Below are positions 4,754-22,549 of a stretch of DNA of 24,041 nucleotides, in pieces (the first letter of the stretch is position 1; each line of letters opens with the position of its first letter). The DNA lies in the IMG/VR virus record IMGVR_UViG_3300025671_006884, positions 1 through 24,041 of that record. The stretch is one strand, 5' to 3'. This DNA is from a virus. A program made the position numbers and the translations under genes. Below the pieces are notes generated by a model. It ran no database searches and was not told the DNA's origin. It worked only from the letters and a program-made list of their open reading frames with translations.

Positions 4754-5400
4754 ACACCCTCTTTAAATTTCTTCCAATCGTTATCAAATATTTCCAGTCC
4801 CTTATCAGTCAGTACATGATCGTACATCTGGTCGAAGACCTTAGGTGGCATTGTTACCACTTCAGCACCATTATACCATGACCTAACAGCCCGTTGTACA
4901 CTACGAATAGAAGCAGACAAGACCTGTGTACGGATACCATGGATACGATACAGTTCACTGATTGATCTAACGACTTCCAGACCTGCAACAGATTGATCAT
5001 CCAATCGACCAACGAAAGGCGAAACATATGCAGCACCAGCCTTGGCAGCAAGAATGGCCTGCGATGTACAGAAGATCAATGTGACATTGACACGAATTCC
5101 ATTCTTAGATAGTTCCTTACAAGCAAGAAGGCCATCACGGGTACAAGGTACTTTGATTGTTGCCACTGACCCAAACTTCTCAGACAGTCTTTCACCCTCT
5201 CTGAGCATCTCCTGAGCGTCTCCAATGACCTCCATACTGATGTCTTTAACACCAAGATCTTTCAGTTTCTGGTAAACCTCATCAGGATCCTGACCATTCT
5301 TCATGATCAATGTGGGGTTAGTTGTGACTCCATCAATCAGTCCAGTTGCGAAATACTTCTCAATTGTTTCTGTATCAGCAGTGTCAAGAAAAATTCTCAT
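4750..5400 (-). CDS. talC: Transaldolase, TalC type
   Basis: 216 residues, the length of the small TalC/FSA family. Transaldolase moves a dihydroxyacetone unit between pentose-phosphate pathway sugars. The Schiff-base lysine is K83 in ATIKVPCT, with VTTNPT at 25-30 and VSPFVGR at 126-132. Two residues that separate transaldolases from fructose-6-phosphate aldolase are of the transaldolase kind: E57 (Gln in E. coli FSA) and F129 (Tyr131 in FSA). This marks it as a transaldolase by established family knowledge. TalC is a known cyanophage auxiliary metabolic gene, but here it is embedded between glycosyltransferase genes rather than with photosynthesis genes. It overlaps its upstream neighbour by 17 bases and its downstream neighbour by an ATGA. 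Confidence 0.93.
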   Translation of the reverse strand: MRIFLDTADTETIEKYFATGLIDGVTTNPTLIMKNGQDPDEVYQKLKDLGVKDISMEVIGDAQEMLREGERLSEKFGSVATIKVPCTRDGLLACKELSKNGIRVNVTLIFCTSQAILAAKAGAAYVSPFVGRLDDQSVAGLEVVRSISELYRIHGIRTQVLSASIRSVQRAVRSWYNGAEVVTMPPKVFDQMYDHVLTDKGLEIFDNDWKKFKEGV

Positions 5401-8674: not shown

Positions 8675-9498
8675 AATTTAATCTCCTTATTTTGTTCTGC
8701 CAGTGTTGTGTCAGTTATATCTCCTACATCAAGTGAATAGAAAGTATGCCAACCTCTTGCATTAGCTGCGTACCAATTATTTAAGGCACCTCTAGTCATC
8801 TTAATCTCTTCCCAGAACTGTCGAGATTGAATCTGGTAGTGATTGTTTAGGATCTCAGGATCATCTGGTCTCCCTACAAATGACAGGTTTATTGTAGGTC
8901 CACCCGTGAAGATTTTATGAATATTAAAATTACTTACACCAAACTTTGTATTTGCAATTTGTTTAGGTGCCCAAAGATTAAACCACTCTGGTTCCTCTTG
9001 ACCAGAACCAGCACACCTTGACCGATGAGTCATCCATACTCTGTCACCAAATGGAGCACGACTAGTAAAATTCTGAACCAAACCACCAGCAGGATGAGTA
9101 AGATGATCATTACTATTAAACCATACCCAGTTGGTTTCGACGGTTCCATAGTCTTCGTACTTCCTAAGAATCTCTTTCAGATCAGTAGTCTTAGGACTAT
9201 ATAAGAACTCATCAAGATCAATTTGTGCAATCCATTGAGTTTCGTTACAAATAGGTAGAAAGAATTTATTGTTTACATCAGTCTGCCTACCAGTGTATCT
9301 CTCTGTAATGTCATTTTGGAAGAGAGTAACAAAGCCTTCACGAATGAAAGGTTCAAGAATAGGCATGTACTCGTCATCACTGAAGTCGTTGACCAGATAG
9401 ATGTGATCAACACCATGATGTTTATAATGTAAAATCCACTCTTTAAGATTCCAACTTTCATTCTTGAATACTGATGCAACTGATAGGTAGTGTTTCAT
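8671..9498 (-). CDS. Glycosyltransferase family 92 (DUF23-like)
   Basis: 275 residues. GT92 members add galactose, for instance to fucose on glycans. FKNESWNLKEWILHYKHHG at 11-29 and the following HIYLVNDFSDD match the family N-terminus. D94-L-D-E-F98 is the metal-binding D-x-D. HKIF and NHY later in the sequence fit the C-terminal half of the domain. There is no signal peptide. GT92 acting on fucose is interesting next to fucosyltransferase-like genes, but specificity cannot be assigned here. ATGA overlaps link it to both neighbours. Confidence 0.85.
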   Translation of the reverse strand: MKHYLSVASVFKNESWNLKEWILHYKHHGVDHIYLVNDFSDDEYMPILEPFIREGFVTLFQNDITERYTGRQTDVNNKFFLPICNETQWIAQIDLDEFLYSPKTTDLKEILRKYEDYGTVETNWVWFNSNDHLTHPAGGLVQNFTSRAPFGDRVWMTHRSRCAGSGQEEPEWFNLWAPKQIANTKFGVSNFNIHKIFTGGPTINLSFVGRPDDPEILNNHYQIQSRQFWEEIKMTRGALNNWYAANARGWHTFYSLDVGDITDTTLAEQNKEIKL

Positions 9499-10208
9499 AA
9501 TGTGATACCGTGTTTCTTTCTACAATATTCAAATTCTTTCTGTACTTCTTCGTCACTGATTGTTGAGGATAGTGCATCCTTATTCACTCTTTGAGTCATC
9601 AGACAGTCATTGAGATAATAACAATCACCATACTTAGTTCTTAATGAATAGTAGAAATCAATGTCCAATAACATACATGTCTTAGGATCCCATCTTACAT
9701 CCATGTCTTTATTCTTATATGAGATAACCGCTACACCACTCATAGTATTGTTACCTCTTGCTCTCAACATATTATCATTCCATCTTGGCATCAAGAATGT
9801 ATCAAATGTTCTACCATCATCTCTGGTGTGATTAGTTCCACACACTAACCACATCTTATCAGAGGTCATTAATGCATTATAAGTTTTCTCCAATGCATCT
9901 TTAGTATAAAAATAGTCATCCATGAACATCATCTTGACAACCTCACCCTTGGCAAGATCCATTCCGATGTTCATATTGGTTGCAACATCTCCTCTATGTT
10001 CTTCGTCTCTGAAGTAGATGATATTGAGGTCAAAGATATTGTCATTACAGAAATCTTCAATCTTTTTATCAACACTCTGGTCAGTAACAATAACTTCTAC
10101 TTCTTTAAGTGTTTGTTGTGAGATGGTACGAAACATATCAGAAAGATATCTAACACCCTTACCACCATACTCATAACAAGGGATGACTACAGATACCTTT
10201 ATTTCCAT
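9495..10208 (-). CDS. Glycosyltransferase family 2
   Basis: 237 residues, a single GT-A domain. VSVVIPCYEYGG at 5-16 is the family's UDP-binding start. MFMDDYFY at 94-101 carries the D-D metal site, and the preceding NMNIGMDLAKGE fits the usual helix. D-I-D-F-Y-Y at about 183-188 may be the acceptor-site acidic pair. The start overlaps the end of the methyltransferase gene by 10 bases, with AAGG just upstream. The sugar is unknown. Confidence 0.87.
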   Translation of the reverse strand: MEIKVSVVIPCYEYGGKGVRYLSDMFRTISQQTLKEVEVIVTDQSVDKKIEDFCNDNIFDLNIIYFRDEEHRGDVATNMNIGMDLAKGEVVKMMFMDDYFYTKDALEKTYNALMTSDKMWLVCGTNHTRDDGRTFDTFLMPRWNDNMLRARGNNTMSGVAVISYKNKDMDVRWDPKTCMLLDIDFYYSLRTKYGDCYYLNDCLMTQRVNKDALSSTISDEEVQKEFEYCRKKHGITL

Positions 10209-10882
10209 ACCTTGACACCAGCACTGATACCATCTTCATAGATCTCAAACTTGTACCCGTGTTTGGTAAGCCACTCTCTGAAAGCCTTTCTCTCATGGTG
10301 GTCATAGTCAGGTTCATGACCATGCCAGTCATCAAATCGGAAGTACAGTTGATCCCACTCACACTTATCAATAAACTTGAATGCAGAGACTGTAGGTTCG
10401 TAGATGTCTAGGTCAATATGAATTGCACCAACCTTACCAATACCAAAGTCAGATGGTTCTTTCTCTACCATCTCATGAACATCTTCAACAAAGATCTTGA
10501 TGTTGGGTGAGACAGAACACTTCTTCTTTACATCTTCTACAGTCTTTGGGATCCAAGTATAGGAGGGGTCACCAATACGGAACGCACCCTCTGCCCATCC
10601 AGCATATGATGGTGTGGGTTGCTGTGTGACCTCCAGACCTTTGAAGTGGTCGAAACCAAAGACTTTACGTGATGGATTTTTCTGTCCAATAGGAAGGATT
10701 GTACCACCACTACAGACACCGAATTCTAGAATATCTCCTTCTCCACCCAACTCTTCGATACGTTCTGCAAAGGTAACGTGATTGAGTGTGTAACTTGCTG
10801 TGTTATTGTCAGTTCTCTTAGGACCTTCAGGAAACACATTATCCTCCTCAACAAAGGAGGGTGCATTATAAACAAATGACAT
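10199..10882 (-). CDS. SAM-dependent methyltransferase (TylF/MycF-like)
   Basis: 227 residues from ATG 10882. A longer frame to 10963 has an unlikely N-terminus lying over the upstream gene. LEFGVCSGGT at 52-61 is the SAM-binding loop of class I methyltransferases. GFDHFKGLE at 77-85 and HIDLDIYEP further on fit the TylF/MycF sugar O-methyltransferase group, where Asp residues bind the metal. It probably methylates a hydroxyl on a sugar, which would cap or modify the phage-directed glycan. A GATAAATA late-promoter motif lies 20 bases upstream. There is no evident Shine-Dalgarno. Confidence 0.8.
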   Translation of the reverse strand: MSFVYNAPSFVEEDNVFPEGPKRTDNNTASYTLNHVTFAERIEELGGEGDILEFGVCSGGTILPIGQKNPSRKVFGFDHFKGLEVTQQPTPSYAGWAEGAFRIGDPSYTWIPKTVEDVKKKCSVSPNIKIFVEDVHEMVEKEPSDFGIGKVGAIHIDLDIYEPTVSAFKFIDKCEWDQLYFRFDDWHGHEPDYDHHERKAFREWLTKHGYKFEIYEDGISAGVKVWK

Positions 10883-10901
10883 AGTAATAATGAATTTGAA
10901 A

Positions 10902-10909
10902 TATTTATC
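10902..10909 (-). promoter_or_regulatory. Internal T4-type late promoter GATAAATA
   Basis: Minus-strand GATAAATA matches the cyanomyovirus late consensus NATAAATA and lies 20 bases before the ATG at 10882. It overlaps the stop codon (TAA) of the upstream gene. It would allow the second half of the glycan operon to be transcribed late. Confidence 0.55.
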
Positions 10910-11627
10910 GGGGGTTGTAACCCTCCACCTCGACACCAGGTGGAAGATTATTGTGAAAACCAAATGGAATTATACCACTATTCTCAGGAACAGGGGACTC
11001 GTATGAGAAGTATTTTGCAATCTCAATAGGAGCTATCTTACAACCACGTTTCTCATATAGGTGTTTGTTGTGGACAGTTATATTACCGTCTTCATTAGTA
11101 TTATTGCTCCCAAACATTTTATAGAAATCTGGAGCAACTTCTGTTAGTTTAAATGGTATCCATTCATGACAAGGAACTTCTAAAAGTTTTTTAGACCTTA
11201 AAGAAAATCCACCATTTCCTACCCTTTGGTGTTCACCGAATGGGGTGATGTATGCCTTTTCTCTGATGGGCCAGGGAGCACCAATGTAATCATAATCAAA
11301 AAACTCATCCATCCAAGCATCAGGATTAAGTATGAACGCATGATCTTGGATGAGTAGAACATAGTCGGTGTCAATATGTTTATGAAGGTGATAGAGAATA
11401 TAATAATTATATTCATCAATATTAGTCAGTGGTCTGACTTGTTCCTCTACTAAAATACCATCAGAGGACAGTTCCTCCTTGTACTTAGTGACATACTCAG
11501 GGGTGGTAACTAACTTGACCTCCCCGAAGTTTGCAACACTCATACAAGTGTGAAGTGCCTTGATGGTCTCTTCTATTCTATTTGTATTATCAATCGCAAA
11601 GCATGTAACTCTGGATAGATCAAGCAT
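10905..11627 (-). CDS. DUF5672-family putative glycosyltransferase
   Basis: 240 residues. Y114-IGAPW119 and VGNGGFSLRS at 136-145 are the marks of the DUF5672 domain, which occurs with glycosyltransferases and has a GT-A-like layout. LLIQDHAFIL at 91-100 occupies the place of the metal-binding acidic motif but reads Q-D-H rather than D-x-D. No signal peptide is visible. It overlaps the end of the RfbH-type gene by 8 bases. The activity is inferred from family association only. Confidence 0.72.
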   Translation of the reverse strand: MLDLSRVTCFAIDNTNRIEETIKALHTCMSVANFGEVKLVTTPEYVTKYKEELSSDGILVEEQVRPLTNIDEYNYYILYHLHKHIDTDYVLLIQDHAFILNPDAWMDEFFDYDYIGAPWPIREKAYITPFGEHQRVGNGGFSLRSKKLLEVPCHEWIPFKLTEVAPDFYKMFGSNNTNEDGNITVHNKHLYEKRGCKIAPIEIAKYFSYESPVPENSGIIPFGFHNNLPPGVEVEGYNPR

Positions 11628-12915
11628 TCTTAAAATCCTCTACTACTTGTCCAATGTAATCAATCATATCATCAGTGATGACAGGAGAACAACCAAGGAA
11701 GAACACTGTGTTAAGAACCTTATTGGCTTCAGGATACTTCATGGCATCATCAAGATGTGAGTAACCAGGATGAAGAAGTATATTACCAGCAAAGTAATTA
11801 CGTGTTTGAACTTTGTTCTTCTCAAGGTGAGCAACAAGAGAGTGTTTCAGTTTCTTGTTGTCACATACAATAGGAACACCAAACCAACTGGTCTCACTGT
11901 CTTCACGCTCATTGACAACACGACAACCAGGAATAGTCTCGATAATCTTTTGAATCCTCTCCTTATTCTTTCTCCTCAGACTATGAATCTCATCAAACTT
12001 CAGGAGTTGAACTGAACCAACTGCACCCTGCATGTCAAGGGGTTTCAGGTTATAACCCATCTGTGAGAACACATACTTGTGATCCACAACATCTTCATAA
12101 CCATCTAACCAGGTATCAAATCGACGACCACATACACCATTAGAGAGGAGATTCTGTTGTCCGACACAGTAACAACCACGACCCCACCAAGCAAAACTAC
12201 GAGCCAGATCTACTATCTCTTTAACATTTGAAGACACCATACCACCTTCAATGGTACAAATGTGGTGAGCAGGATAAAAGGAACAAGATGCTGCGATTGC
12301 ATGTTTGGTAAGATACTCACCTTTGTATTTACTACCAAGACTGTCACAGTTATCTGCAATGATGTGGATATCCTTACTCTTACAGATCTCAACTAGACGA
12401 TCAAGATCATATGCATTACCAAGAACAGGAGAAGAGAAGACTGCACGTGTCTTTGATGTAATCTTTTCCTCAACTTGATCCATGTTCCAGTTCAGATCAT
12501 CCCAGTTGATGTCAACAAAAACTGGTTTTAGACCATTCTGTACCAGTGGAGCAATGGTTGTAGCAAAACCACAAGAACATACGATGACCTCATCACCATC
12601 TTCCCACCCAAAATATTTCTTCAGAGCAGCAATCATCACCAGATTTGCCGATGAACCAGAGTTGACCATGACAGAATGATCGAAACCAAACTTGTTAGAG
12701 AACTCTTTCTCAAACTTGTTCACCTTCTCACCAGAAGACAACCACTTACCTTTCAGTGTAGCATAGATAAGTTCTTGGATCTCTAGATCATTCCAATATG
12801 GACCAGAGTAGTAGACATTATTGCCAGGCTTCCAATCCTTATTCGCCATGAAAGGAAAGACGTTATCGTCCATCTCTTTGGCGTCTTGGATGAAGTTCTC
12901 AATCAGTTGGTACAT
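11620..12915 (-). CDS. rfbH: RfbH-type CDP-4-keto-6-deoxyglucose 3-dehydratase (PLP, Fe-S)
   Basis: 431 residues of the DegT/DnrJ/EryC1 fold. In aminotransferases of this fold a Lys follows SFxxx. Here the segment is S212-FYPA-H217, so the PLP lysine is replaced by His, the hallmark of 3-dehydratases such as RfbH (E1) and ColD. Residues 248-262 contain C-Y-C and, after 11 residues, a further Cys. With C190 this fits the [2Fe-2S] ligand set of RfbH, which ColD lacks. E1 removes the 3-hydroxyl of CDP-4-keto-6-deoxyglucose on the way to 3,6-dideoxyhexoses and needs a reductase (E3). No E3, RfbF or RfbG is visible here. One base separates it from the upstream stop. The family name is strong and the exact substrate is inferred. 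Confidence 0.88.
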   Translation of the reverse strand: MYQLIENFIQDAKEMDDNVFPFMANKDWKPGNNVYYSGPYWNDLEIQELIYATLKGKWLSSGEKVNKFEKEFSNKFGFDHSVMVNSGSSANLVMIAALKKYFGWEDGDEVIVCSCGFATTIAPLVQNGLKPVFVDINWDDLNWNMDQVEEKITSKTRAVFSSPVLGNAYDLDRLVEICKSKDIHIIADNCDSLGSKYKGEYLTKHAIAASCSFYPAHHICTIEGGMVSSNVKEIVDLARSFAWWGRGCYCVGQQNLLSNGVCGRRFDTWLDGYEDVVDHKYVFSQMGYNLKPLDMQGAVGSVQLLKFDEIHSLRRKNKERIQKIIETIPGCRVVNEREDSETSWFGVPIVCDNKKLKHSLVAHLEKNKVQTRNYFAGNILLHPGYSHLDDAMKYPEANKVLNTVFFLGCSPVITDDMIDYIGQVVEDFKNA

Positions 12916-12916
12916 A

Positions 12917-13891
12917 TTATTCTACAGTTTGATTTCTACTATACAACGGACTCTTAATCCTGTAAACATCCCATTCCCTTTCACACTCTTTACCACTGAA
13001 CTCTTTACCATCTCTATCGATGTAGTCCCAGGTTGGTACAATGATATCATCACCACGCCACCAACCATCGGATGTCTTATGGTCGAACCAATACTTAGGA
13101 GCGATTACTTTCTTAACTTCCTCACTTGTCCATACGGGCCAGAAAGAAAATGTCGATGCAGACATAATTACATTCCTAGCATTATATAGGATCGACCAAT
13201 CAACCCCAATATTACCACCCTTATACTTGAAGAATCCAGTTCCTTGTTCGATGTCTTCTTGTTCAGAAAGAGTGGTGGCACCTACAACCTTTGCCCATGG
13301 GATGAACTTGTTTGCATTCTCAGGATCATCTGTGACAACCACAAATTTCATATTGGGATTGTATTCCAACATACGATCACGTGCGTTCTCATAGAATTTA
13401 GGTTCCAACCATGACGCAGTGATCAAATACTCACCACCACGGAAGTGAATCACACATGTATCATCGTCACAGTAATCTCGGACATCGATATTAGTCTTCA
13501 ACCATTTTCTGATGGTGTTCTTTTGACCATCTAGGTATGACAGACACTGAAACAGTCCATCAATCTTTGAATTGTCAGGTAGATTGTTCCACAGACCAGG
13601 ATCAAAAAAGATACCATCATGTCCACACTGAGGAAGAGGGACAGAATGTTCACGAATATAGTGTTTAATACCTTGTGGGAGAGATGCAGGTTGTTGTCCT
13701 TCCCGCGGTGTAGAACCACCAATAACTTCCTCACCAAAATCAAAGTCAGGCATAAAGTTCTTTGCCTTGAATGGAGTGGTCTTCATGACACCCCACTTAT
13801 ATCCATGTCTGTATGCAAGTATCCTTGATACGACAAGGTTCCAGATCTGGTTACCCAGTCCAGAACCCCTATAGATTTCAGTAACGATCAT
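12917..13891 (-). CDS. GT11-like glycosyltransferase (fucosyltransferase family)
   Basis: 324 residues. The N-terminal GSGLGNQIWNL at 9-19 and the C-terminal SASTFSFWPVW at 244-254 match GT11 layout. The donor motif reads H149-F-R-G-G-E154 instead of HxRRGD, so the second Arg and the Asp are altered. It is longer than the two other GT11-like proteins (264 and 268) because of extra C-terminal sequence after 255 and an insertion between the first two motifs. The start overlaps the GT17 stop (ATGA). Confidence 0.8.
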   Translation of the reverse strand: MIVTEIYRGSGLGNQIWNLVVSRILAYRHGYKWGVMKTTPFKAKNFMPDFDFGEEVIGGSTPREGQQPASLPQGIKHYIREHSVPLPQCGHDGIFFDPGLWNNLPDNSKIDGLFQCLSYLDGQKNTIRKWLKTNIDVRDYCDDDTCVIHFRGGEYLITASWLEPKFYENARDRMLEYNPNMKFVVVTDDPENANKFIPWAKVVGATTLSEQEDIEQGTGFFKYKGGNIGVDWSILYNARNVIMSASTFSFWPVWTSEEVKKVIAPKYWFDHKTSDGWWRGDDIIVPTWDYIDRDGKEFSGKECEREWDVYRIKSPLYSRNQTVE

Positions 13892-14772
13892 TTGATTAGA
13901 TAAGAATACTTTTCTTGGTTGTCAATAAGATACTGAGGGAATCGATCTTCGTCAAAGTGACAGATACAATAGGATGCATTGTCTTGACCAAGTGGTGATC
14001 TACCATCCTTGAGTCTTTGTTCCAACTCTCCAATCAGTCTATCATTATTCAACTCAGTATGTGCTGAAGATTTAATCTTCTTCATCACTCGATCATACAT
14101 GGTAGTCTCTTCATCACTACCAACTGTACTCCAGTGCCAACCACCAGGATAGATCCTAAGATTATTCTCTTGAGGAAGTTCACGTCTCATACCAGTCAGA
14201 GTATACTTCTTCAGTGTGGCAAAGTCACACATCTTTGTACCAATCCAACGAGGACCTTCTTCTTCATAAGAGAAGTCTTTAGTTTGAGAATGAATCGTAC
14301 CACTGGTCTCGAACCAGTTCAGTGCAGCTTGGTAATTATCTTGTGCAAAGTTATAGACAGTACCAGGTTTGTAGAATGATTCATACTGTTCAATGACTTC
14401 AGGATTAGGTACTTCATCCAAATCACTCCAGATAATGATGTCTTCATCAGAACAATGTTCCTTCAGTACATCCATAATACTATCTTTATAGTATGTGTCC
14501 CTCATAAAGGACTCTCTCTTCACATTGTATTGAATACCTTTTGCTTGAAGTTCTTCCTGAGAGGGTTCTTCAATCTTGGTGTAGATAATCTTATTTTTAA
14601 ACTTCTTGAATCTCTTATCTGTCTTCTTAAATACAAACCCCTTATCTTCACCAGAGAAAGTTTTACTACCCTCACTGAATACAAAATAATCAACATACGG
14701 ATCAAGGAGATTCATCCGAATCTCCAACAGATCTAACTCATAACCAAAAAGAAATACGTCAAATACTTTCAT
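13888..14772 (-). CDS. Glycosyltransferase family 17
   Basis: 294 residues. GT17 contains beta-1,4-mannosyl-glycoprotein N-acetylglucosaminyltransferase and bacterial and phage relatives. The start FLFGYELDLLEIRMNLL at 7-23 and the following YVDYFVFSEGSKTFSG are highly characteristic. S116-DLDE120 carries the D-x-D-E metal site. G-G-W-H-W-S later in the protein also fits the family. It lacks the signal anchor of eukaryotic members. One base separates it from the FkbM-family gene. Confidence 0.88.
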   Translation of the reverse strand: MKVFDVFLFGYELDLLEIRMNLLDPYVDYFVFSEGSKTFSGEDKGFVFKKTDKRFKKFKNKIIYTKIEEPSQEELQAKGIQYNVKRESFMRDTYYKDSIMDVLKEHCSDEDIIIWSDLDEVPNPEVIEQYESFYKPGTVYNFAQDNYQAALNWFETSGTIHSQTKDFSYEEEGPRWIGTKMCDFATLKKYTLTGMRRELPQENNLRIYPGGWHWSTVGSDEETTMYDRVMKKIKSSAHTELNNDRLIGELEQRLKDGRSPLGQDNASYCICHFDEDRFPQYLIDNQEKYSYLIK

Positions 14773-14773
14773 G

Positions 14774-15487
14774 TCAGTCTCTCAGTTTAAACAATGCATC
14801 ACCACCCATCACATCAGTGTATGGCCAGTTCTGTACTAAATCATATCCAGGAAGGAGATCAGAAACAGTCTGAAGATTAGTAGCACCTTCATACATTTCT
14901 TCTTCATGATACTCGGTGTAGATATAATCAATCTTACCGATCATATTCTTTGCACCAAGGAACACTTCCTTCTCTGCACCTTGAACATCCATCCACAAGA
15001 AGTCGATGTGTTCAATACCATTCTCTTCACAGAAAGAATCAAGACTACGAGTAGAGACTGTAATCCTCTCATCGTATTTGATGAATGGCCAACGGTTACC
15101 CTTTGGACCACCGTCAATGATAGTCTTAGGTTCGTAGATAGAACCAGAGTACCTACCAAAATCCACACCACCATCAGGTGCATTGACATTCCTAGAACGT
15201 GTGAATGTGGTCACACCATCCTGTGCTGCAATTGCGGCAGGAGTGAATGTGTGACGACCATCAGAACGTAGGTTATCATTAGATACACCTTTGACATCCT
15301 TACCACCAGGTTCTGACATCGCTTTGATGTTGGTGGGGTCAGGATCAAACGTATACAGTTTCAGATTAGGACCAAACTGTCGAAGAAACTCCTTCGAGTC
15401 AGTACCATCTGCACATCCCACTTCGAAGATAACCACAGACTCGCGGTTACCTACCATCTCATGAATTTTATCAATTGATAGTCCCAT
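14774..15487 (-). CDS. FkbM-family SAM-dependent methyltransferase
   Basis: 237 residues from ATG 15487. A much longer frame exists to 15682, but this ATG has a clear Shine-Dalgarno (AAGGAGA, six bases upstream), and residues before it lie over the GME gene. FEVGCADGTDS at 21-31 is the SAM-binding loop, and F164-LWMDVQGAE172 is the FkbM signature. FkbM enzymes O-methylate sugars or polyketides, so here it probably methylates a sugar of the glycan. It overlaps the end of the epimerase gene by 17 bases. Confidence 0.87.
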   Translation of the reverse strand: MGLSIDKIHEMVGNRESVVIFEVGCADGTDSKEFLRQFGPNLKLYTFDPDPTNIKAMSEPGGKDVKGVSNDNLRSDGRHTFTPAAIAAQDGVTTFTRSRNVNAPDGGVDFGRYSGSIYEPKTIIDGGPKGNRWPFIKYDERITVSTRSLDSFCEENGIEHIDFLWMDVQGAEKEVFLGAKNMIGKIDYIYTEYHEEEMYEGATNLQTVSDLLPGYDLVQNWPYTDVMGGDALFKLRD

Positions 15488-16586
15488 CTGTCTTCTCCTT
15501 AATTTGTGTACAAATCCATTCATATGTCTTACGGATACCCTCTTCAAGACTCTGAGAGTAATCCCAACCAAGTTTCTCACGGATGAGGTCATTGTTTGAA
15601 TTACGACCACGAACACCCGTAGGAGCATCAAGTTTATAAACTTTCTGAACAACCTTACCTGATACTTTTGCCGCAGTATCAACTAATTGATTGATAGTAA
15701 CCATTTCCTCAGAACCAATATTGACTGGACCCATAAAGTCTGAATCCATCAATCGTCGAGTTGCTTCAATGCATTCGTCAATGTACAGGAAGGAACGAGT
15801 TTGTAAGCCATCTCCCCACACCTCGATAGCTCCACCTGTCTCTGGGAGGTAAGCGACTTTACGGCTGATTGCAGCTGGTGCTTTCTCTCTTCCACCGTCC
15901 CAGGTTCCTTCAGGACCAAAGATGTTATGATAACGAGCAACACGAACGGGAATACCATGATTACGGTTGTAAGCAAAGTAGAGACGTTCTGAGAACAACT
16001 TCTCCCATCCATACTCGGAGTCTGGGTCTGCTGGGTATGCTGATTCTTCACGACAGTCAGGATTGTCTGGATCGAGTTGGTTATGTTCTGGGTACATGCA
16101 AGCAGAACCAGAATAGAAAATCTTAGTAGGTTGTTCTAATGCAGGACGAACACATGCAGTTCCATTTTCTTGTCCATCAAAAGTCTCATTAAGTTTACGA
16201 ACTTCTTCAAGAACATTCAAGTTGATGGACACAGAGTTATGCATGATGTCTGCATCATTCTCACCAGTGAAAACGAAACCTGCACCACCCATATCAGCAG
16301 CAAACTGATAGATTTCATCAAAAGGACGAATTGCGCGATATGGAACAGAGTTATAGAAATTTCCTAACTCACCCTTGAATTGGATGACACGACGTACAAA
16401 ACTTACGTCACGCAGATCACCCTGAATGAACTCGTTTGCTTCAGTATCACCATACTCAGGTCTTTTGAGATCTACACCACGAACCCAATATCCTTCTGAC
16501 CGTAGTCGTTTCACCATGTGACTACCAATGAATCCACCTGCACCAAGGACCAGTGCAGTTTTCTTATACTCAGTCATAACATCCAT
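15471..16586 (-). CDS. GDP-mannose 3,5-epimerase (GME)-like
   Basis: 371 residues. GAGGFIG at 15-21 binds NAD. Catalytic residues of Arabidopsis GME (C145, Y174, K178, K217) correspond to C163, Y192, K196 and K235 with a constant offset of 18. The highly conserved GTWDGGREKAPAA at 227-239, GDGLQTRSF at 258-266 and GVRGRNSNN near the C-terminus also match GME. The reaction converts GDP-D-mannose to GDP-L-galactose (and GDP-L-gulose). It would provide an L-galactose donor for the operon. ATG 16586 or the ATG three codons later could be the start, with no strong Shine-Dalgarno for either. This is the clearest substrate assignment in the operon. Confidence 0.9.
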   Translation of the reverse strand: MDVMTEYKKTALVLGAGGFIGSHMVKRLRSEGYWVRGVDLKRPEYGDTEANEFIQGDLRDVSFVRRVIQFKGELGNFYNSVPYRAIRPFDEIYQFAADMGGAGFVFTGENDADIMHNSVSINLNVLEEVRKLNETFDGQENGTACVRPALEQPTKIFYSGSACMYPEHNQLDPDNPDCREESAYPADPDSEYGWEKLFSERLYFAYNRNHGIPVRVARYHNIFGPEGTWDGGREKAPAAISRKVAYLPETGGAIEVWGDGLQTRSFLYIDECIEATRRLMDSDFMGPVNIGSEEMVTINQLVDTAAKVSGKVVQKVYKLDAPTGVRGRNSNNDLIREKLGWDYSQSLEEGIRKTYEWICTQIKEKTDGTIN

Positions 16587-16614
16587 GAATTACTTACTAT
16601 GTATTCCGTTAAGA

Positions 16615-17436
16615 TCAATATACTTTACACATCATATCAAGTCCTGTGTCGATGTCAAGTTTAGGAACAAACCCTAAAGAATTTAACTTATCGACATTCA
16701 TTGTGAAGTTTTTGATCTGTAGATAGTCCTGATCCTCAGGAAAAGGAACATCAATAATCTCACTCGTACTACCTACCCTCTCCTTACAATATTCAATGAT
16801 CTCCCTAAATGATCGTGACACACCTGTTCCAATATTATAGATCTCATTTGGGTTACCAAAGACCATCAATTCGTTCATAGCCCGACACACATCATCGACA
16901 TACATATAGTCCTTCTGATAATCACCACCACCGTACAGTTTGATAGGATCATTGTTTTTCAGACAACGAATCATATATCCAAGAACATTCTTTCCTGGTG
17001 TCACTGTAGGGTCAATACCAAAGACATTGCCAATCCTAAAGATACGATAATCAATACCAAAGGTCTTACAGTATGAAATAACTAACGACTCTGCACACCT
17101 CTTAGTAATTGAATAGAAACCTGTTGGATTGCAGGGGTCATCTTCCCTTGCATCGATGATGTCATTGTCATAAACAAAACCAGAACTGACAAAATTGAAC
17201 ACAGTATCTGTTCTCTTACAGTGTGACAACACTTCAGTCAGGATCTTCAGATTAGTATCAATGTCGATCTGTAGATCCTTGAAGACATTCTGATTACTCG
17301 TTGTACTAATCAAGTACAAGATATCAGAAGATTCGGGGTGTCTTTGACCACGGGGAATAGGAATATTATCAGGATACATTCGACAGTAATTACTACCAAT
17401 ATATCCTGATGCACCAAACACAGATAGATTAGTCAT
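16615..17436 (-). CDS. NAD-dependent epimerase/reductase-like SDR
   Basis: 273 residues from ATG 17436, which overlaps the rmlC stop by 8 bases. A GTG three codons earlier is less likely. GASGYIG at 8-14 binds the dinucleotide. The catalytic site fits S84-S85 and Y108-S-I-T-K112. It lies directly after rmlB and rmlC, where rmlD normally stands. RmlD has a different N-terminal motif and this protein is not clearly RmlD. It may be a different 4-ketoreductase acting on the same intermediate, giving an L- or D-6-deoxyhexose other than rhamnose. That is inference from position. Confidence 0.78.
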   Translation of the reverse strand: MTNLSVFGASGYIGSNYCRMYPDNIPIPRGQRHPESSDILYLISTTSNQNVFKDLQIDIDTNLKILTEVLSHCKRTDTVFNFVSSGFVYDNDIIDAREDDPCNPTGFYSITKRCAESLVISYCKTFGIDYRIFRIGNVFGIDPTVTPGKNVLGYMIRCLKNNDPIKLYGGGDYQKDYMYVDDVCRAMNELMVFGNPNEIYNIGTGVSRSFREIIEYCKERVGSTSEIIDVPFPEDQDYLQIKNFTMNVDKLNSLGFVPKLDIDTGLDMMCKVY

Positions 17437-17965
17437 ATTTCTCACACTCCTCTAGAGTCTTACCACGTTTGTCTTTCTCAGACAAAATAGGATACGGAAT
17501 ATTCCATTCAATATCTAGAGCAGGATCATTCCAAAGAAGAGTTCGATCATACTCCTTGTAGTAATACTCTGTTGTCTTATATGAGACATGTGCTTTGTCA
17601 CTCTTGACAACAAACCCATGAGCAAATCCTTCAGGAACCCATAACATCAATTCAGGTCGATTCAAATCAACCTTATAGTGCTCACCAAAAGTATTTGATG
17701 TCAATCGAAGATCGACGATAACATCCATGATCCAACCCTTTACACACCTTACAAGTTTGCCTTGCGGTTTCTCAACCTGATAGTGAAGACCACGAAGAAC
17801 ATTCGCAGTAGAAGATGAGTGATTGTCCTGAACAAATTCTACATCCAATCCTATTTCACAAAAATCTTTTTTGTTATATGACTCAATGAAGTATCCACGA
17901 TCATCAAAGTGTCGGGGTTGTTCGATGATGTATGCACCATCAAGTGGTGTATTAATGACTTTCAT
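17429..17965 (-). CDS. rmlC: dTDP-4-dehydrorhamnose 3,5-epimerase
   Basis: 178 residues from ATG 17965, close to the usual length of about 180. L57-RGLHYQ63 includes the catalytic base H61, VPEGFAHGF at 110-118 fits the cupin core, and the Tyr pair at 134-135 fits the catalytic acid position. It epimerises C3 and C5 of dTDP-4-keto-6-deoxyglucose, the RmlB product. It overlaps rmlB by 14 bases. No rmlA is seen in the window, so dTDP-glucose must come from the host. Confidence 0.93.
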   Translation of the reverse strand: MKVINTPLDGAYIIEQPRHFDDRGYFIESYNKKDFCEIGLDVEFVQDNHSSSTANVLRGLHYQVEKPQGKLVRCVKGWIMDVIVDLRLTSNTFGEHYKVDLNRPELMLWVPEGFAHGFVVKSDKAHVSYKTTEYYYKEYDRTLLWNDPALDIEWNIPYPILSEKDKRGKTLEECEKYD

Positions 17966-18869
17966 AATGTTCAATCGTTTTTAAGAGTCCTTGATTGATA
18001 TCAGTTTTTGGTTTCCAACCAATTTCGTTAGTGATCTTTTGGTTTGATGTCGAGTATCTTACATCATGTCCTGGTCTGTCAGTTACAAATTCAATAGGGT
18101 GATCAGGTTTACCCATCAGTGATGTGATACGTTTGACGAGTTCAAGATTAGTCATCTCACACTCACCACCGATGTTGTACCTGTCTCCTACATTACCATG
18201 CTTCCAGACTTCGATCAAGGCATCACAATGATCCTCAACAAAAATCCAATCTCTGACCTGTTGCCCATCACCATAGACAGGAATAGGTAAGTCATTCTTT
18301 ACATTGTGAATGATCTTAGGAATCATCTTCTCATAATGTTGTCTAGGCCCATAGTTGTTAGAACAGTTTGTGATTGTTGTGGGTAGACCATAAGTCTTAT
18401 TGTATGCATTCACAAAGTGGTCACTCGCTGCCTTTGATGCAGAGTATGGATTTCTTGGTTTGTATCTTGATTGTTCGTTAAAAGAACCTTCGGAGATAGA
18501 ACCAAACACCTCATCAGTAGAGATGTGCATAAACCTATTCACCTCCTTCTCCAATGCAAGTTGAAGAAGATTAACTGTACCAATTACATTAGCTTCAATG
18601 AATGGTTTACAGTCATTGATAGAGTTATCTACATGACTCTCTGCTGCAAGATGAAAGATGTCTGTGAAAGTTTCTTGTTCAAAAAGATATCTGACCGCCT
18701 CCTCATCTGCGAGATCAGTCATATAGAGTTCCACATTGTCAGGAACATTGTCCTGACTAGCAGCATAGGTAAACTTGTCTACACATACAAGTCTTTCTTT
18801 GAATGGTGCAAGTTGTCTAAGAAGACTACTACCAATAAACCCTGCACCACCAGTAACTAGAATAGTCAT
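17952..18869 (-). CDS. rmlB: dTDP-glucose 4,6-dehydratase
   Basis: 305 residues, shorter than typical RmlB (about 330-360). GGAGFIG at 7-13 binds NAD. The dehydratase signature T118-D-E120 in HISTDEVFGS supplies the acid/base pair, and Y142-SAS-K146 completes the SDR active site. NCSNNYGPRQHYEKMIP also matches the family. It turns dTDP-glucose into dTDP-4-keto-6-deoxyglucose, which RmlC then uses. ATGA overlap with the cytidylyltransferase-like gene upstream. The missing length may be loops, since all key residues are present. Confidence 0.93.
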   Translation of the reverse strand: MTILVTGGAGFIGSSLLRQLAPFKERLVCVDKFTYAASQDNVPDNVELYMTDLADEEAVRYLFEQETFTDIFHLAAESHVDNSINDCKPFIEANVIGTVNLLQLALEKEVNRFMHISTDEVFGSISEGSFNEQSRYKPRNPYSASKAASDHFVNAYNKTYGLPTTITNCSNNYGPRQHYEKMIPKIIHNVKNDLPIPVYGDGQQVRDWIFVEDHCDALIEVWKHGNVGDRYNIGGECEMTNLELVKRITSLMGKPDHPIEFVTDRPGHDVRYSTSNQKITNEIGWKPKTDINQGLLKTIEHYESH

Positions 18870-19360
18870 TTTTGTTCGTACTTATCAAGGATGGAAGGTG
18901 AGTATTGTTCTGGAATTTCACCTTGTATCTTTTCATTTCTCTTTTTCTCCTCTAACATGAAAACTCTATTACGGAGTTCAGTAGAAGAGTACTTATGTTG
19001 TCTCTTGTGATAATGAATCTCGATATCATTATCGATACAATATTGCTTACCTGTAAAGTCTCTATCTTTATACTCTTCGCTCAAGAATCTGATGTCAATT
19101 CTCTGTGTCTTAATCATGTTCAGAAGATCTTCTTCTGTTTCGTAGACCAGAATCTCATCGACGTATCTACAACCCTGTACCTGTACATACCTCTCATATA
19201 CACTCTGAGTGGGTTTGTTCTTGATACCAGGTCTATCGATGGTTGGGTCTACCTGAAGTGCGACAATCAACCAGTCGCATAATTCCTTTTCCATCTTCAA
19301 CATTGTCACATGTCCAGCATGAAACAAGTCAAAGGAACTACAATTAAAACCAATCTTCAT
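18866..19360 (-). CDS. Cytidylyltransferase-like nucleotidyltransferase
   Basis: 164 residues from ATG 19360. An in-frame TTG two codons earlier is not needed. The HxGH motif H14-A-G-H17 and YSSTELRNR at 124-132 (compare the I-S-S-T-x-L-R of the family) place it with glycerol-3-phosphate cytidylyltransferase and the RfaE-like nucleotidyltransferases. It activates a sugar- or polyol-phosphate with CTP or ATP. It is the first gene of the glycan operon, about 22 bases after the expected start of the promoter at 19389-19417, and has no clear Shine-Dalgarno. It cannot replace RmlA, which has a different fold. Confidence 0.8.
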   Translation of the reverse strand: MKIGFNCSSFDLFHAGHVTMLKMEKELCDWLIVALQVDPTIDRPGIKNKPTQSVYERYVQVQGCRYVDEILVYETEEDLLNMIKTQRIDIRFLSEEYKDRDFTGKQYCIDNDIEIHYHKRQHKYSSTELRNRVFMLEEKKRNEKIQGEIPEQYSPSILDKYEQK

Positions 19361-19388: not shown

Positions 19389-19417
19389 ATTGTATGAAAA
19401 AAGGAGGTCTTTGTCAA
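19389..19417 (-). promoter_or_regulatory. Sigma70-type promoter of the glycan operon, inside a terminator
   Basis: Minus-strand TTGACA (19417-19412) and TACAAT (19394-19389) with a 17-base spacer, giving a start near 19382. The -35 lies in the loop and the adjoining arm base pairs of the terminator at 19397-19424, and the spacer is the 3' arm plus U-run. It can start transcription of the 21-gene operon just as the previous transcript ends. Confidence 0.7.
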
Positions 19418-19424
19418 GACCTCC
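19397..19424 (-). terminator. Strong intrinsic terminator before the glycan operon
   Basis: A perfect 9-bp stem GGAGGTCTT/AAGACCTCC (19424-19416 with 19411-19403), loop GACA, then TTTTTT on the minus strand. It ends transcripts that pass through the structured region 19430-19633. It could also be the expression platform of a leader if the upstream fold can control it. Confidence 0.9.
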
Positions 19425-19633
19425 CATCTGGGCTCCATGCACGCCAAGTTATTTTTATCACTGAGTAATAACTAAATCTCAGGCGGGGAGAATTCCCATC
19501 CGCACCAACTAATCTTTGGAGAATTAGTAAACTCAGTTGGGTCCATTGACTCCACCACTTAGTTTTACGAACTAAGAAACGCGGGATTGAAGGGGACCTT
19601 CACCGACCAGTACTGTTATAGTCCTTCCGTGAC
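19425..19633 (-). ncRNA. Candidate structured RNA upstream of the glycan operon
   Basis: No coding frame is convincing here. The 209 bases can form many stems: TGAAGG/CCTTCA (19602-19597 with 19593-19588), CTTAGTT/AACTAAG (19576-19570 with 19564-19558), CCAACT/AGTTGG (19540-19535 with 19510-19505, enclosing CTAAT/ATTAG), a GC-rich GCGG..GGGA/TCCC..CGC hairpin (19503-19483) and CTGAG/CTCAG (19482-19461). This density exceeds the neighbouring sequence. It could be a free small RNA ended by the terminator at 19397-19424, the structured 3' end of the upstream mRNA, or a leader acting by attenuation on the glycan genes. The wcaG RNA motif, reported upstream of exopolysaccharide genes in cyanophages, is a family to compare. 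I cannot confirm a match. Confidence 0.5.
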
Positions 19634-19873
19634 TCAAAGAGCACCTTTGGAAAGTTTTTCAATATTGAGCTGTTGATTCTTTTTAAGAATGTCAACTAAG
19701 ACTTGAAACTTACCTTCAAGGTCAGAAGATGATGAGGCAGGTGCTTCTTCTTTTGCCTTGAGTTCTGATTTAAGTGAGAGAACTTCAGCCTCAAGAGACC
19801 TAAGTCTCTTCTCAACTTCTTGGTCATACTGACTCATGTATGAACCACTTTCAGATACTTTTCTAGATGCCAT
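19634..19873 (-). CDS. 79-aa coiled-coil protein
   Basis: 79 residues. Residues about 15-45 (heptads such as VEKRLRSLEAEVLSLKSELK) are a probable coiled coil, followed by a Ser/Ala linker (APASSSSD) and a second helical part ending KLSKGAL. No catalytic motif. It may mediate oligomerisation or act as a scaffold or adaptor, which cannot be decided. An AATAAATA late-promoter motif lies 22 bases before the ATG, so it is likely a late gene. A start at M13 is possible. Confidence 0.75.
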   Translation of the reverse strand: MASRKVSESGSYMSQYDQEVEKRLRSLEAEVLSLKSELKAKEEAPASSSSDLEGKFQVLVDILKKNQQLNIEKLSKGAL

Positions 19874-20415: not shown

Positions 20416-20417
20416 GA

Positions 20418-20490
20418 TGGGGGATGTGGGGATCGAACCCACCTTTCTCCTGTTATGAGCAGGGTGCTTTCACCAGAGAGCTAAACCCCC
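20418..20490 (-). tRNA. tRNA with CAT anticodon (Met, or Ile2)
   Basis: Cloverleaf of 73 bases: acceptor GGGGGTT/ATCCCCC with one T-T mismatch, T-arm GTGGG-TTCGATC-CCCAC, and anticodon loop CTCATAA with anticodon CAT. CCA is not encoded. A CAT anticodon can mean elongator Met or, after lysidine modification, Ile(AUA). Sequence alone does not decide. It is the last gene of the tRNA cluster. Confidence 0.85.
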
Positions 20491-20492
20491 AA

Positions 20493-20564
20493 TGGTTCTG
20501 CCGAGAATTGAACTCGGTTCACACGCTTATAAGGCATGGGCTTTAACCAATAAGCAACAGAACC
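20493..20564 (-). tRNA. tRNA-Ile (TAT anticodon)
   Basis: 72 bases. Acceptor GGTTCTG/CAGAACC is perfect, D-stem GCTT/AAGC, T-arm CCGAG-TTCAATT-CTCGG. The anticodon stem CATGC/GCGTG encloses loop CTTATAA, giving anticodon TAT, which reads AUA. CCA is not encoded. The 5' base is also the last base of the stop codon of the antitoxin-like gene. Confidence 0.85.
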
Positions 20565-20737
20565 TAAGGAGCTTCGTTGTTTAATTCTGTGTAGAGTTTA
20601 TATGTGGGATCATCAGTCGGCATCATTACTGCTGCACTGCCGTTTTCATTGACTATCCCTATATGTTCTCCATCCTCTACTCTTTGTATCAACTCGTCCC
20701 ATCTTTCTTGAAATTCTTGCACTGTGAAGACTTCCAT
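20564..20737 (-). CDS. Phd/YefM antitoxin-like small protein
   Basis: 57 residues, ATG 20737, TAG at 20566-20564. The fold-type pattern is that of the N-terminal DNA-binding part of Phd/YefM antitoxins: TVQEFQERWDELIQRVEDGE at 5-24 (strand, helix), then HIGIVNENGSAAVMMP at 25-40, the typical beta-hairpin with N-x-x-G-x-x-A-A-V/I-M. The C-terminal toxin-binding tail is very short, and no toxin gene is adjacent. It may neutralise a host toxin or regulate transcription. It lies inside the tRNA cluster, and its stop shares a base with tRNA-Ile. No Shine-Dalgarno is evident. Confidence 0.75.
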   Translation of the reverse strand: MEVFTVQEFQERWDELIQRVEDGEHIGIVNENGSAAVMMPTDDPTYKLYTELNNEAP

Positions 20738-20758
20738 AATTGATAATATTTAGTGGGG

Positions 20759-20774
20759 GATTGGTTACCCAATC
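20759..20774 (-). other. GTAA-tetraloop hairpin abutting tRNA-Pro
   Basis: Minus-strand GATTGG-GTAA-CCAATC, a 6-bp stem with a GNRA tetraloop. Its first base is the discriminator base of tRNA-Pro. It lies between the tRNA and the antitoxin-like gene and probably marks or protects the 3' end. Confidence 0.55.
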
Positions 20775-20845
20775 GGAATGACACGATTCGAACGTGCGAC
20801 CCCTGCTTCCCAAAAGCAGTGCTCTACCAAACTGAGCTACATTCC
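20774..20845 (-). tRNA. tRNA-Pro (TGG anticodon)
   Basis: 72 bases. Anticodon stem CTGCT/AGCAG around TTTGGGA gives TGG. D-arm GCTCAGTTTGGTAGAGC and T-loop TTCGAAT are canonical, and the acceptor begins GGAATG and ends CATTCC. CCA is not encoded. One base separates it from the CCA of tRNA-Ser upstream, suggesting a dimeric precursor. Confidence 0.93.
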
Positions 20846-20846
20846 G

Positions 20847-20934
20847 TGGCGGAGAGTCAGAGATTCGAACTCTGGGTGCTGTTACACACGCTTGTTTTCA
20901 AGACAAGTACCATAAACCACTCGGTCAACTCTCC
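20847..20934 (-). tRNA. tRNA-Ser (TGA anticodon), CCA encoded
   Basis: Class II tRNA with a long variable arm. Acceptor GGAGAGT/ACTCTCC, anticodon stem CTTGT/ACAAG around CTTGAAA gives TGA, T-loop TTCGAAT. After the discriminator G the bases CCA are encoded (20849-20847). Confidence 0.93.
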
Positions 20935-20936
20935 AG

Positions 20937-21185
20937 TTATCGGACTTCAAAGTCCAATCTTCTGACCTTTCTTTTTCTCCTTTCTTCTTGATAGGAGAGA
21001 TCAGAATTACTTAGGAAACTTTTTGAATTCGTTTCCTTGTTTGATTCTACCATAACAACCTTTGTAAGGTCAACAGCAGTCACTTTGTCTTCAATTACCG
21101 TCATCATATTAGGACAACCACAACAATGTGTGTGATGGTCACTTCTGATTTCTTTATTGCATTGTTTGCATCTTACGGTAATCAT
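20937..21185 (-). CDS. Small zinc-ribbon-like protein, 82 aa
   Basis: 82 residues. The N-terminus contains C6-x2-C9 and C21-C22-x-C24 with several His between (DHHTH), a pattern that could bind one zinc ion. A middle part (VTAVDLTKVVMV) looks like a beta strand pair, and the C-terminus is strongly basic (ERRKRKVRR), as in nucleic-acid-binding proteins. The function is unknown. It lies between tRNA-Val and tRNA-Ser and its stop is two bases from the tRNA-Ser 5' end, so it is probably on the tRNA transcript. A role in RNA or DNA binding is inference. Confidence 0.75.
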   Translation of the reverse strand: MITVRCKQCNKEIRSDHHTHCCGCPNMMTVIEDKVTAVDLTKVVMVESNKETNSKSFLSNSDLSYQEERRKRKVRRLDFEVR

Positions 21186-21208
21186 TGTTCATGAAGGCAA
21201 TTGAGACA

Positions 21209-21280
21209 TGCTCGAAGAGGGATTCGAACCCCCGACCATCTCCGTGTAAAGGAGGTGCGCTACCGCTGCGCTATTCGAGC
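21209..21280 (-). tRNA. tRNA-Val (TAC anticodon)
   Basis: 72 bases. Acceptor GCTCGAA/TTCGAGC, D-arm GCGCAGCGGTAGCGC, anticodon loop TTTACAC gives TAC, T-loop TTCGAAT. CCA is not encoded. Three bases separate it from tRNA-Asn upstream. Confidence 0.93.
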
Positions 21281-21283
21281 AGA

Positions 21284-21356
21284 CTGGCCCACTAGGACTC
21301 GAACCTAGGACAACAGAGTTAACAGCTCCGTGCTCTACCAACTGAGCTATAGGCCA
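21284..21356 (-). tRNA. tRNA-Asn (GTT anticodon)
   Basis: 73 bases. Acceptor TGGCCTA/TGGGCCA pairs fully with one wobble, anticodon stem CGGAG/CTCTG around CTGTTAA gives GTT, T-arm CCTAG-GTTCGAGT-CCTAG. CCA is not encoded. Confidence 0.93.
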
Positions 21357-21359
21357 ATG

Positions 21360-21524
21360 TTATATGTTTTTACCTTCTTCTTTGCGTAGTTTGAAGTAGA
21401 GTTGATAGTACCTCTTCTTCATTTCTTCAAGAATCTGGTTATCTTCTATAAAACCAAGTCTTTTAGTGTGTGCGTAACACCCCTCAAGTTCTCCAATGAG
21501 TAAAAGGATATCAACTGGTTTCAT
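21360..21524 (-). CDS. 54-aa small helical protein
   Basis: 54 residues, ATG 21524, TAA at 21362-21360, too short for many gene callers. It starts MKPVDILLLIGELEGCYAHT, continues with KRLGFIEDNQILEEMKKRYY and ends in a basic tail. The pattern suggests two or three helices, and no known family is recognised. It starts three bases after the oxygenase gene's stop and ends four bases before tRNA-Asn, filling the gap exactly, which supports a real gene. No clear Shine-Dalgarno. Confidence 0.65.
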   Translation of the reverse strand: MKPVDILLLIGELEGCYAHTKRLGFIEDNQILEEMKKRYYQLYFKLRKEEGKNI

Positions 21525-21526
21525 GA

Positions 21527-22114
21527 TTATTTATGAAGCCATCCTGTACAAATATACTTAGTCTGACTTTTGGGAGGATAACCCCTGTGAAAATATTCCC
21601 AAGTTGCTGGAAATAAACAAAATCTACCAGTTTTTGGTTGTACTTTAGTACCATCCATGAATTCAGTGTAACCATCTTCTTCAATGTCGTTAAGATACCA
21701 AATGAAAGTAAGAACTCTCATTCTATGATAACCTAACATTGAATCAGTGTGCCAAATGTAACCTCCACCAGGGGTCGTTCTTTGAATTTGATATCCAGTA
21801 TCATCTAAATTAGAAAAACGAGAACGAAGATTAATATTATTTGAACTAAGAATTTCTCTATTAATATAATCAAATAATTGTTTATTTAAGCAATCAAAAA
21901 ATACACTATCCTCTTCTGACCAATTCTCATAATGTGAAATATTGAGGTCCATTGAATCTTTGACAGATTTATCAACTGTTGGACCACCAATACTACCTAT
22001 ACAACCATCAGACTTTTGATCGTCACTTTCAAATTTTTTTATAACATGTTCACAAAACTCTGGGGTTAGAGTATCATCAACAACGTAGATAAGATCTGAA
22101 AAATTTAAAGACAT
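21527..22114 (-). CDS. 2-oxoglutarate/Fe(II)-dependent oxygenase (P4H-like)
   Basis: 195 residues. The facial-triad residues fit H122-T-D124 and H176 (in YFHRGYPP), and K186 ten residues later is placed to bind the 2-oxoglutarate carboxylate. This is the double-stranded beta-helix fold of the prolyl-4-hydroxylase-like family. Such enzymes hydroxylate proteins, nucleic acids or small molecules with O2 and 2-oxoglutarate. The substrate is unknown. 2OG oxygenases are frequent in marine cyanophages. The gene is notably AT-rich in its middle (runs of Asn/Ile codons), and it sits alone between tRNA genes, which suggests recent acquisition. No clear Shine-Dalgarno. Confidence 0.85.
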   Translation of the reverse strand: MSLNFSDLIYVVDDTLTPEFCEHVIKKFESDDQKSDGCIGSIGGPTVDKSVKDSMDLNISHYENWSEEDSVFFDCLNKQLFDYINREILSSNNINLRSRFSNLDDTGYQIQRTTPGGGYIWHTDSMLGYHRMRVLTFIWYLNDIEEDGYTEFMDGTKVQPKTGRFCLFPATWEYFHRGYPPKSQTKYICTGWLHK

Positions 22115-22129
22115 AAGAATATGGTGTGT

Positions 22130-22145
22130 ATTCCCTTTCGGGAAT
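22130..22145 (-). other. GAAA-tetraloop hairpin abutting tRNA-Ala
   Basis: Minus-strand ATTCCC-GAAA-GGGAAT, a perfect 6-bp stem with a GNRA tetraloop. Its first base is the tRNA-Ala discriminator base, the same arrangement as after tRNA-Pro. It precedes the oxygenase ATG by 15 bases. Confidence 0.55.
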
Positions 22146-22217
22146 GGAGAATAGGAGACTCGAACTCCTGACAGCCTGCTTGCAAAGCAGGTGCTCTACC
22201 AACTGAGCTAATTCCCC
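22145..22217 (-). tRNA. tRNA-Ala (TGC anticodon)
   Basis: 73 bases. Acceptor GGGGAAT/ATTCTCC with one wobble pair, D-arm GCTCAGTTGGTAGAGC, anticodon stem CCTGC/GCAGG around TTTGCAA gives TGC, T-arm AGGAG-TTCGAGT-CTCCT. CCA is not encoded. It begins directly after the CCA of tRNA-Thr. Confidence 0.94.
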
Positions 22218-22292
22218 TGGAGCCCCTGACAGGATTTGAACCTGCGACCTGAGCTTTACAAAAGCCCTGCTCTACCACTGAGCTACGGAGGC
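22218..22292 (-). tRNA. tRNA-Thr (TGT anticodon), CCA encoded
   Basis: Acceptor GCCTCCG/CAGGGGC (one C-A mismatch), anticodon stem GGGCT/AGCTC around TTTGTAA gives TGT, T-loop TTCAAAT. The discriminator is T, an unusual base, followed by an encoded CCA (22220-22218) that touches the tRNA-Ala 5' end. Confidence 0.92.
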
Positions 22293-22471
22293 ATACATTA
22301 CACTTATCCGAATGCTTGCTATGGGGTATGTAACCCAACATTCTGACAGTTTGATAATGGAGTAAGACAGGGGTCCTCCCTGAATATCCAAAGGGGGCTG
22401 ATTCCTAACTGCAGGGTTTCGGTATATCCGAACCGCTAGGCACCTTTGGTTGGAACGTCTCAAGTTCCTGA
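22293..22471 (-). ncRNA. Structured non-coding stretch between tRNA-Arg and tRNA-Thr
   Basis: No cloverleaf and no credible gene. A nested fold is clear: outer stem CCAAAGG/CCTTTGG (22449-22443 with 22394-22388), then CCTA/TAGG (22440-22437 with 22407-22404), then GGTTCGG/CCGAAACC with one bulge (22434-22428 with 22422-22415) and a 5-base loop. Before and after it are a GGAAC/GTTCC hairpin and CAGGG..CCCTG and GGG..CCC hairpins. It could be a stable small RNA. T4 likewise encodes stable RNAs C and D of unknown role in its tRNA cluster. It could also be an old, decayed tRNA region. Confidence 0.45.
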
Positions 22472-22545
22472 CGACTCGTGTAGGATTCGAACCTACGACC
22501 GACTGCTTAGAAGGCAGTTGCTCTATCCAGCTGAGCTAACGAGTC
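22472..22545 (-). tRNA. tRNA-Arg (TCT anticodon)
   Basis: 74 bases. Acceptor GACTCGT/ACGAGTC is perfect, D-arm GCTCAGCTGGATAGAGC, anticodon stem ACTGC/GCAGT around CTTCTAA gives TCT, T-arm GTAGG-TTCGAAT-CCTAC. CCA is not encoded. It is the first tRNA of the cluster in transcription order. Confidence 0.95.
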
Positions 22546-22549
22546 AAGT

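Follow-up and report, generated by a model that had tools for sequence, protein, structure and literature searches.

The wcaG RNA (Rfam RF01761) is a cyanophage candidate that its original description places in the 5' UTR of genes for exopolysaccharides or of high-light genes and suggests to be a riboswitch (Weinberg 2010, PMC2864571), and its presence in cyanophages is documented in that paper and in others (PMC9602691, PMC9964418, PMC10665884). It is listed as cis-regulatory and a possible riboswitch, and phage genome papers repeat the label. Large cyanophages are also known to carry lipopolysaccharide gene clusters near tRNAs (PMC3037559). Two further kinds of phage element bear on this locus: ROOL and GOLLD, which are phage RNAs found near tRNA islands, with a predicted structure of several pseudoknots in the case of ROOL (PMC12286853), and the PeSLs of T4-like phages, which are composite promoter-terminator motifs (Arbiol 2010 and Comeau 2014, as cited in PMC4503421).

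The window, meaning the whole 24,041-nt stretch of DNA that was analysed, is part of a virus record with close relatives among Synechococcus phages, and its wcaG RNA lies in cyanophage or marine viral DNA. A preliminary description of the sequence had guessed at the wcaG class and proposed a run of the Rfam covariance models, and cmscan on the whole window bore the guess out with a match to RF01761 of 64.3 bits (E 4.5e-10; curated cut-off 42) that covered the model end to end (positions 1-98). Both strands of 19397-19633 were read, and all features of the locus were found on the minus strand, in the following order:

20416..22546, minus strand: nine tRNA genes (the tRNA cluster), upstream of the RNA and on its strand
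19634..19873, minus strand: 79-aa coiled-coil-like ORF directly 5' of the RNA (phrog_35121; PHROG category: unknown function)
19536-19433, minus strand: wcaG RNA (RF01761), the whole C-D element, from the Rfam covariance model with cmscan
18866..19360, minus strand: first gene of the glycan operon, cytidylyltransferase-like (TagD-like), with its ATG at 19360
2324..19360, minus strand: glycan operon, from Pfam and PHROGs

The expected succession of a structured gap, a terminator and a glycan operon is in place (from cmscan, the terminator fold and the Pfam genes, respectively), and the gene 3' of wcaG is separated from it by the terminator and the gene's own promoter. The operon encodes a CTP transferase, NDP-sugar dehydratase/epimerases, a sugar isomerase, an aminotransferase, glycosyltransferases and a transaldolase. 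Structure was confirmed in the span proposed earlier, but the structured part begins at 19634, within the TGA stop of the ORF upstream, the A of which is the first base of unit A's stem. Relatives of this coiled-coil ORF lie between units B and C of the RNA (see below) in other phages, while in the window it lies 5' of unit A. Further upstream, at 19894-20127, the window carries a small ORF (...YTKWLDPD.VPCYV..., phrog_481) of the type that is the most frequent gene directly 5' of the RNA in relatives, and in some of these its coding frame extends into unit A.

Only the 3' half of the element falls within RF01761; in full it is, as read from sequence comparison, a row of four pseudoknot-like units, A-B-C-D:

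19582..19634, minus strand: unit A, outside RF01761, with a stem 19634-19631/19623-19620, UGGUCGG at 19609-19603 and a hairpin 19602-19597/19593-19588
19539..19582, minus strand: unit B, outside RF01761, with an H-type pseudoknot GCG-UUU-CUUAGU..CGU-AAA-ACUAAG and UGGUGGAGUC at 19557-19548
19482..19536, minus strand: unit C, the 5' half of RF01761, with an H-type pseudoknot followed by UGGUGCGGAUGGG at 19507-19495 and CCCGCC at 19487-19482
19439..19482, minus strand: unit D, the 3' half of RF01761, with an H-type pseudoknot CUGAG-AUUU-AGUUAUU..CUCAG..AAUAACU followed by UGGCGUGC at 19446-19439

Unit B additionally has a small hairpin GG(A)GUC/GACCC, and A and B are built on the same plan: a small knot comes first, then UGG, then a short hairpin (UGGUCGG in A, UGGUGGAGUC in B). 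A second full wcaG copy was considered for the upstream region and rejected, as it scored 17.6 bits only and the related units A and B describe the region better. No Rfam family covered A or B when the window and the loci of 16 relatives were scanned; manA, a candidate identity for A-B, gave no match in the same sequences, and neither did the ROOL and GOLLD families.

The covariation that had been named as a check was present in related cyanophages, including in pseudoknot stems that lie outside nested folds. In an alignment of C-D from 63 non-redundant loci (the window included, drawn from the matches listed), 94.9% of cells paired, compared with 78.3% in shuffles and 41-59% in slid versions, and 287 cells were changed on both sides compared with 90 in shuffles. 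The consensus helices were 88.7-100% paired with double changes at 17 pairs, and the pseudoknot stems covaried too, for example as UA, CG and AU at columns 66-81, so that the two H-type pseudoknots in C-D are supported by covariation. For the second unit type, stem 1 occurred as AGUC:GACU, CGUC:GACG, AGAC:GUCU and CGUG:CACG and was 81% paired compared with 60% in shuffled and 24-39% in slid versions, in a set that includes some misclassified rows; 16 A-B sequences supported the same pairing, although double changes were few (9 cells). A search for a pseudoknot partner in these type-2 units yielded a single covarying C-G/U-A contact. Folding energy, the other proposed check, gave a mixed answer: the whole stretch folded better than shuffles (z = -2.0), but with the terminator removed the two halves reached only z = -1.1 and -0.7, and nested minimum free energy was consequently discarded as a proof of structure, which is instead provided by covariation across relatives. 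Unpaired motifs are strongly conserved in the units, which may point to binding or tertiary contacts.

The comparison set comprised at least 120 viral-contig loci found with a wcaG-core pattern and 19 complete isolate phages. All 16 viral-contig loci tested with Rfam scored 77-102 bits, and the wcaG stems stood behind the pattern in 107 of the 120 viral matches listed compared with 1 of 119 matches in bacterial genomes, which were accordingly dismissed as chance. The RNA was found in all 19 complete phages, which is no measure of its commonness because these phages were picked by matching; 18 had a single match, and Syn1 had two adjacent ones (45.1 and 40.9 bits, the second below the cut-off of 42). 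R1, the A-B model, matched 18 of the 19, mostly at the wcaG locus. Among the matches listed, A, B or both were present in 122 of 132 tallied loci, 31 of which had contiguous ABCD as in the window, and in 51 the chain was interrupted by a small ORF at a joint between units, most commonly as A|ORF|BCD (28) or AB|ORF|CD (13). The ORFs inserted at unit joints belong to unrelated kinds. Also among the matches listed, 91 of 115 loci had an upstream ORF whose end lay within 40 nt of the start of the RNA, compared with 14% at random places.

Several variations on this arrangement were observed. In three A|ORF|BCD loci (L035, L002, L078), the unit A hairpin contains an SD-like GGGAG, and its 3' end lies a few nt ahead of the start codon of an inserted membrane-protein ORF (CGGGAGCAAACCCCUUAUG), an arrangement in which translational control by the hairpin is possible. 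Six loci (L018, L028, L041, L086, L103, L128) have an extra pseudoknot unit 3' of D (CCCCUUCCGUGUGGUUG...UGGCG) that lengthens the chain by one, and two forms of 3' flank follow unit D across loci L001-L120, UGGCGUGCAUG(..AAAGACCU) and UGGCGAGCCUG. Lone A-type units occur off the wcaG locus in S-RIM8 (L260, 18445-18536) and S-8S29 (L261, 56132-56208), one of them directly 3' of a tRNA-Leu; the one in S-8S29 lies just 3' of a TATAAT-like box and 5' of a 2OG-Fe(II) oxygenase gene, and judging from this placement units can also be leaders. In S-CREM1 (L131, 2467-2681), manA, abiF and wcaG RNAs are found within 1 kb among tRNA genes, and another wcaG-bearing contig has an abiF RNA beside a group I intron match (L075, 3825-4086).

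The terminator expected ahead of the operon is present, but it does not stand alone, as a promoter overlaps it:

19397..19425, minus strand: intrinsic terminator, with a 10-bp stem 19425-19402, a 4-nt loop GACA and a T run to 19397
19389..19417, minus strand: sigma-70-type promoter, with -35 TTGACA at 19417-19412, 17 nt, and -10 TACAAT at 19394-19389

The terminator hairpin (19425-19402) folded at -16.2 kcal/mol, which none of 200 shuffles equalled. The promoter-like site matches at 11 of 12 positions, its -35 box is shared between the loop and the stem of the terminator, and the predicted transcription start is near 19382, with the operon ATG (19360) 29 nt past the -10 box. Among the matches listed, 93 of 114 loci had a terminator after unit D, a -35-like TTNNNN stood in the loop of 69 of these 93, and the spacing to a TATAAT-like -10 was 17 nt in 68 of the 69; shuffled tails gave the -35-in-loop geometry in 9% only. 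Strict terminators carried such a promoter in 56 of 72 cases after wcaG compared with 6 of 42 elsewhere in the same loci, again among the matches listed. No terminator is present in about one fifth of the listed loci, in some of which unit D is followed at once by a CDS.

The gene that comes next varies. A sugar gene follows in S-SM2, Bellamy, S-SKS1, S-SRM01, DSL-LC03 and SynMITS9220M01, in some cases behind a small CDS, annotated as hypothetical, that overlaps the RNA or lies close to it, and a tRNA follows in S-8S29, S-RIM8, S-CAM1, S-RSM4, S-CREM1 and S-IOM18. In the viral contigs, 39 of 108 first downstream ORFs fell into one epimerase/dehydratase cluster and 12 were cytidylyltransferases; among the matches listed, a glycan gene most often comes next, and first genes are of many different sorts overall. 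In S-B43, which is ~95% identical to the window over the RNA, the terminator-promoter ahead of the TagD gene is separated from the RNA's 3' end by an inserted gene that follows a terminator of its own. The hairpin displaced in this way shows changes on both arms with pairing kept, and neither TTGACA nor the -10 has changed. The inserted gene is hypothetical in S-B43 and annotated as a 2OG-Fe(II) oxygenase in the near-identical records RN05-S and RB11-B.

The account I favour, with slightly better than even confidence, is that the RNA is the structured 3' end of the tRNA-cluster transcript and insulates a glycan operon that begins anew downstream. The transcript would take in the tRNA cluster and small early genes before ending in the A-B-C-D chain, transcription would stop at the intrinsic terminator just past unit D, and a host-type RNA polymerase would restart the glycan operon from the promoter with its -35 in the terminator loop; the RNA, perhaps also stable as a terminator-bounded species, would separate two transcription units and not be a leader to the glycan mRNA. 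The structure is shown by covariation, and the units, the way in which terminator and promoter overlap, the conservation of this geometry and the placement right after a stop codon can be read directly from the sequences; termination and initiation at this site in the cell are what I infer. Counted for the 3'-end reading are the wcaG score, the covariation of C-D, the position of the RNA by an ORF end, the conserved terminator-promoter and the lack of an antiterminator signal, and the insertion in S-B43 between the RNA and an intact terminator-promoter was likewise counted for it. What counts against it is the usual glycan gene downstream, which is what a cis-regulator predicts, along with the fifth of loci without a terminator and the lone leader-like A unit in S-8S29. 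The plain alternative in the preliminary description, a small RNA or a structured mRNA 3' end that carries its own terminator, fits better than the attenuating leader that it had put first.

For that leader, a wcaG RNA would sense a compound and govern terminator read-through into the glycan operon, as the riboswitch suggestion in print and the aptamer-like look of the conserved motifs would have it, and what still speaks most for a cis-regulatory role is the glycan-gene theme downstream; such genes are also expected from one gene island at one site. The leader reading is weakened because the conserved promoter, which starts inside the terminator and past the RNA, would bypass it, and because it would need an alternative pairing with the terminator, for which complementarity between the RNA and the terminator arm stayed at chance level (7.90 with its own terminator, 7.78 with swapped terminators, sd 0.09). 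A conserved promoter-like site in or after the terminator, as judged from its sequence, also suggests that the operon need not be transcribed via the leader only, the RNA mostly abuts an upstream ORF, and several isolates have a tRNA in place of a sugar gene. The RNA is probably not a sugar-sensing switch, and I regard such an attenuator as improbable. Somewhat less doubtful, yet still unlikely, is a stand-alone, trans-acting RNA that would be cut from, or end, the tRNA-cluster transcript as a single folded particle of four units, and which can include the termination step of the 3'-end reading. Adjacent tRNAs and the resemblance to other phage RNAs of tRNA islands, the presence in every complete phage (chosen by match) and mostly once, the conserved unpaired motifs and the retention of units even with an ORF between them speak for it, but inserted ORFs would give a very loose particle and two phages have single units elsewhere. 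Least probable of all, in my estimation, is that the RNA end and terminator-promoter form a PeSL-like boundary between cassettes, retained because it allows gene blocks to be exchanged: S-B43 with its inserted gene and terminator (the one insertion observed), the variety of first downstream genes, and the known PeSLs of T4-like phages are in line with it, while the compensatory changes show that the RNA structure is under selection, and there is one copy per genome here where PeSLs are described, in PMC4503421, as dense in shuffled regions. More broadly, and with a confidence somewhat short of even, I propose that wcaG may be the 3' half of a single-copy ncRNA of cyanophage tRNA clusters, made of repeated pseudoknot-UGG-hairpin units with ORFs at the joints, that does not regulate the sugar genes downstream.

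If the RNA is a 3' end or an independent four-unit RNA, ligand hunts with the 98-nt core would use the wrong construct and ask the wrong question, and the extended element, the -35-in-loop geometry and the ORF insertions open direct and cheap tests. Units A and B, the ORF insertions and the link between wcaG, terminator and promoter appear to be undescribed in the main texts of the freely accessible literature. Compared with known systems, the RNA is, like ROOL and GOLLD, a phage RNA near a tRNA island, and like ROOL has several pseudoknots, but both are much larger. manA (RF01745) is also a cyanophage candidate riboswitch and lies among tRNAs in S-CREM1, but is absent from the window and the 16 loci scanned. 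With PeSLs, as cited in PMC4503421, the locus shares an intrinsic terminator and an early-type promoter combined in a single element between gene blocks, a composite recognised here by sequence, and differs in that this element comes after a conserved multi-pseudoknot RNA. As for wcaG itself, its whole model is filled above the cut-off by C-D, in a cyanophage and with a glycan gene next; the differences are the two upstream units covered by no Rfam model, an operon promoter that lies past the RNA, and a position at the end of an ORF that is not clearly a 5' UTR.
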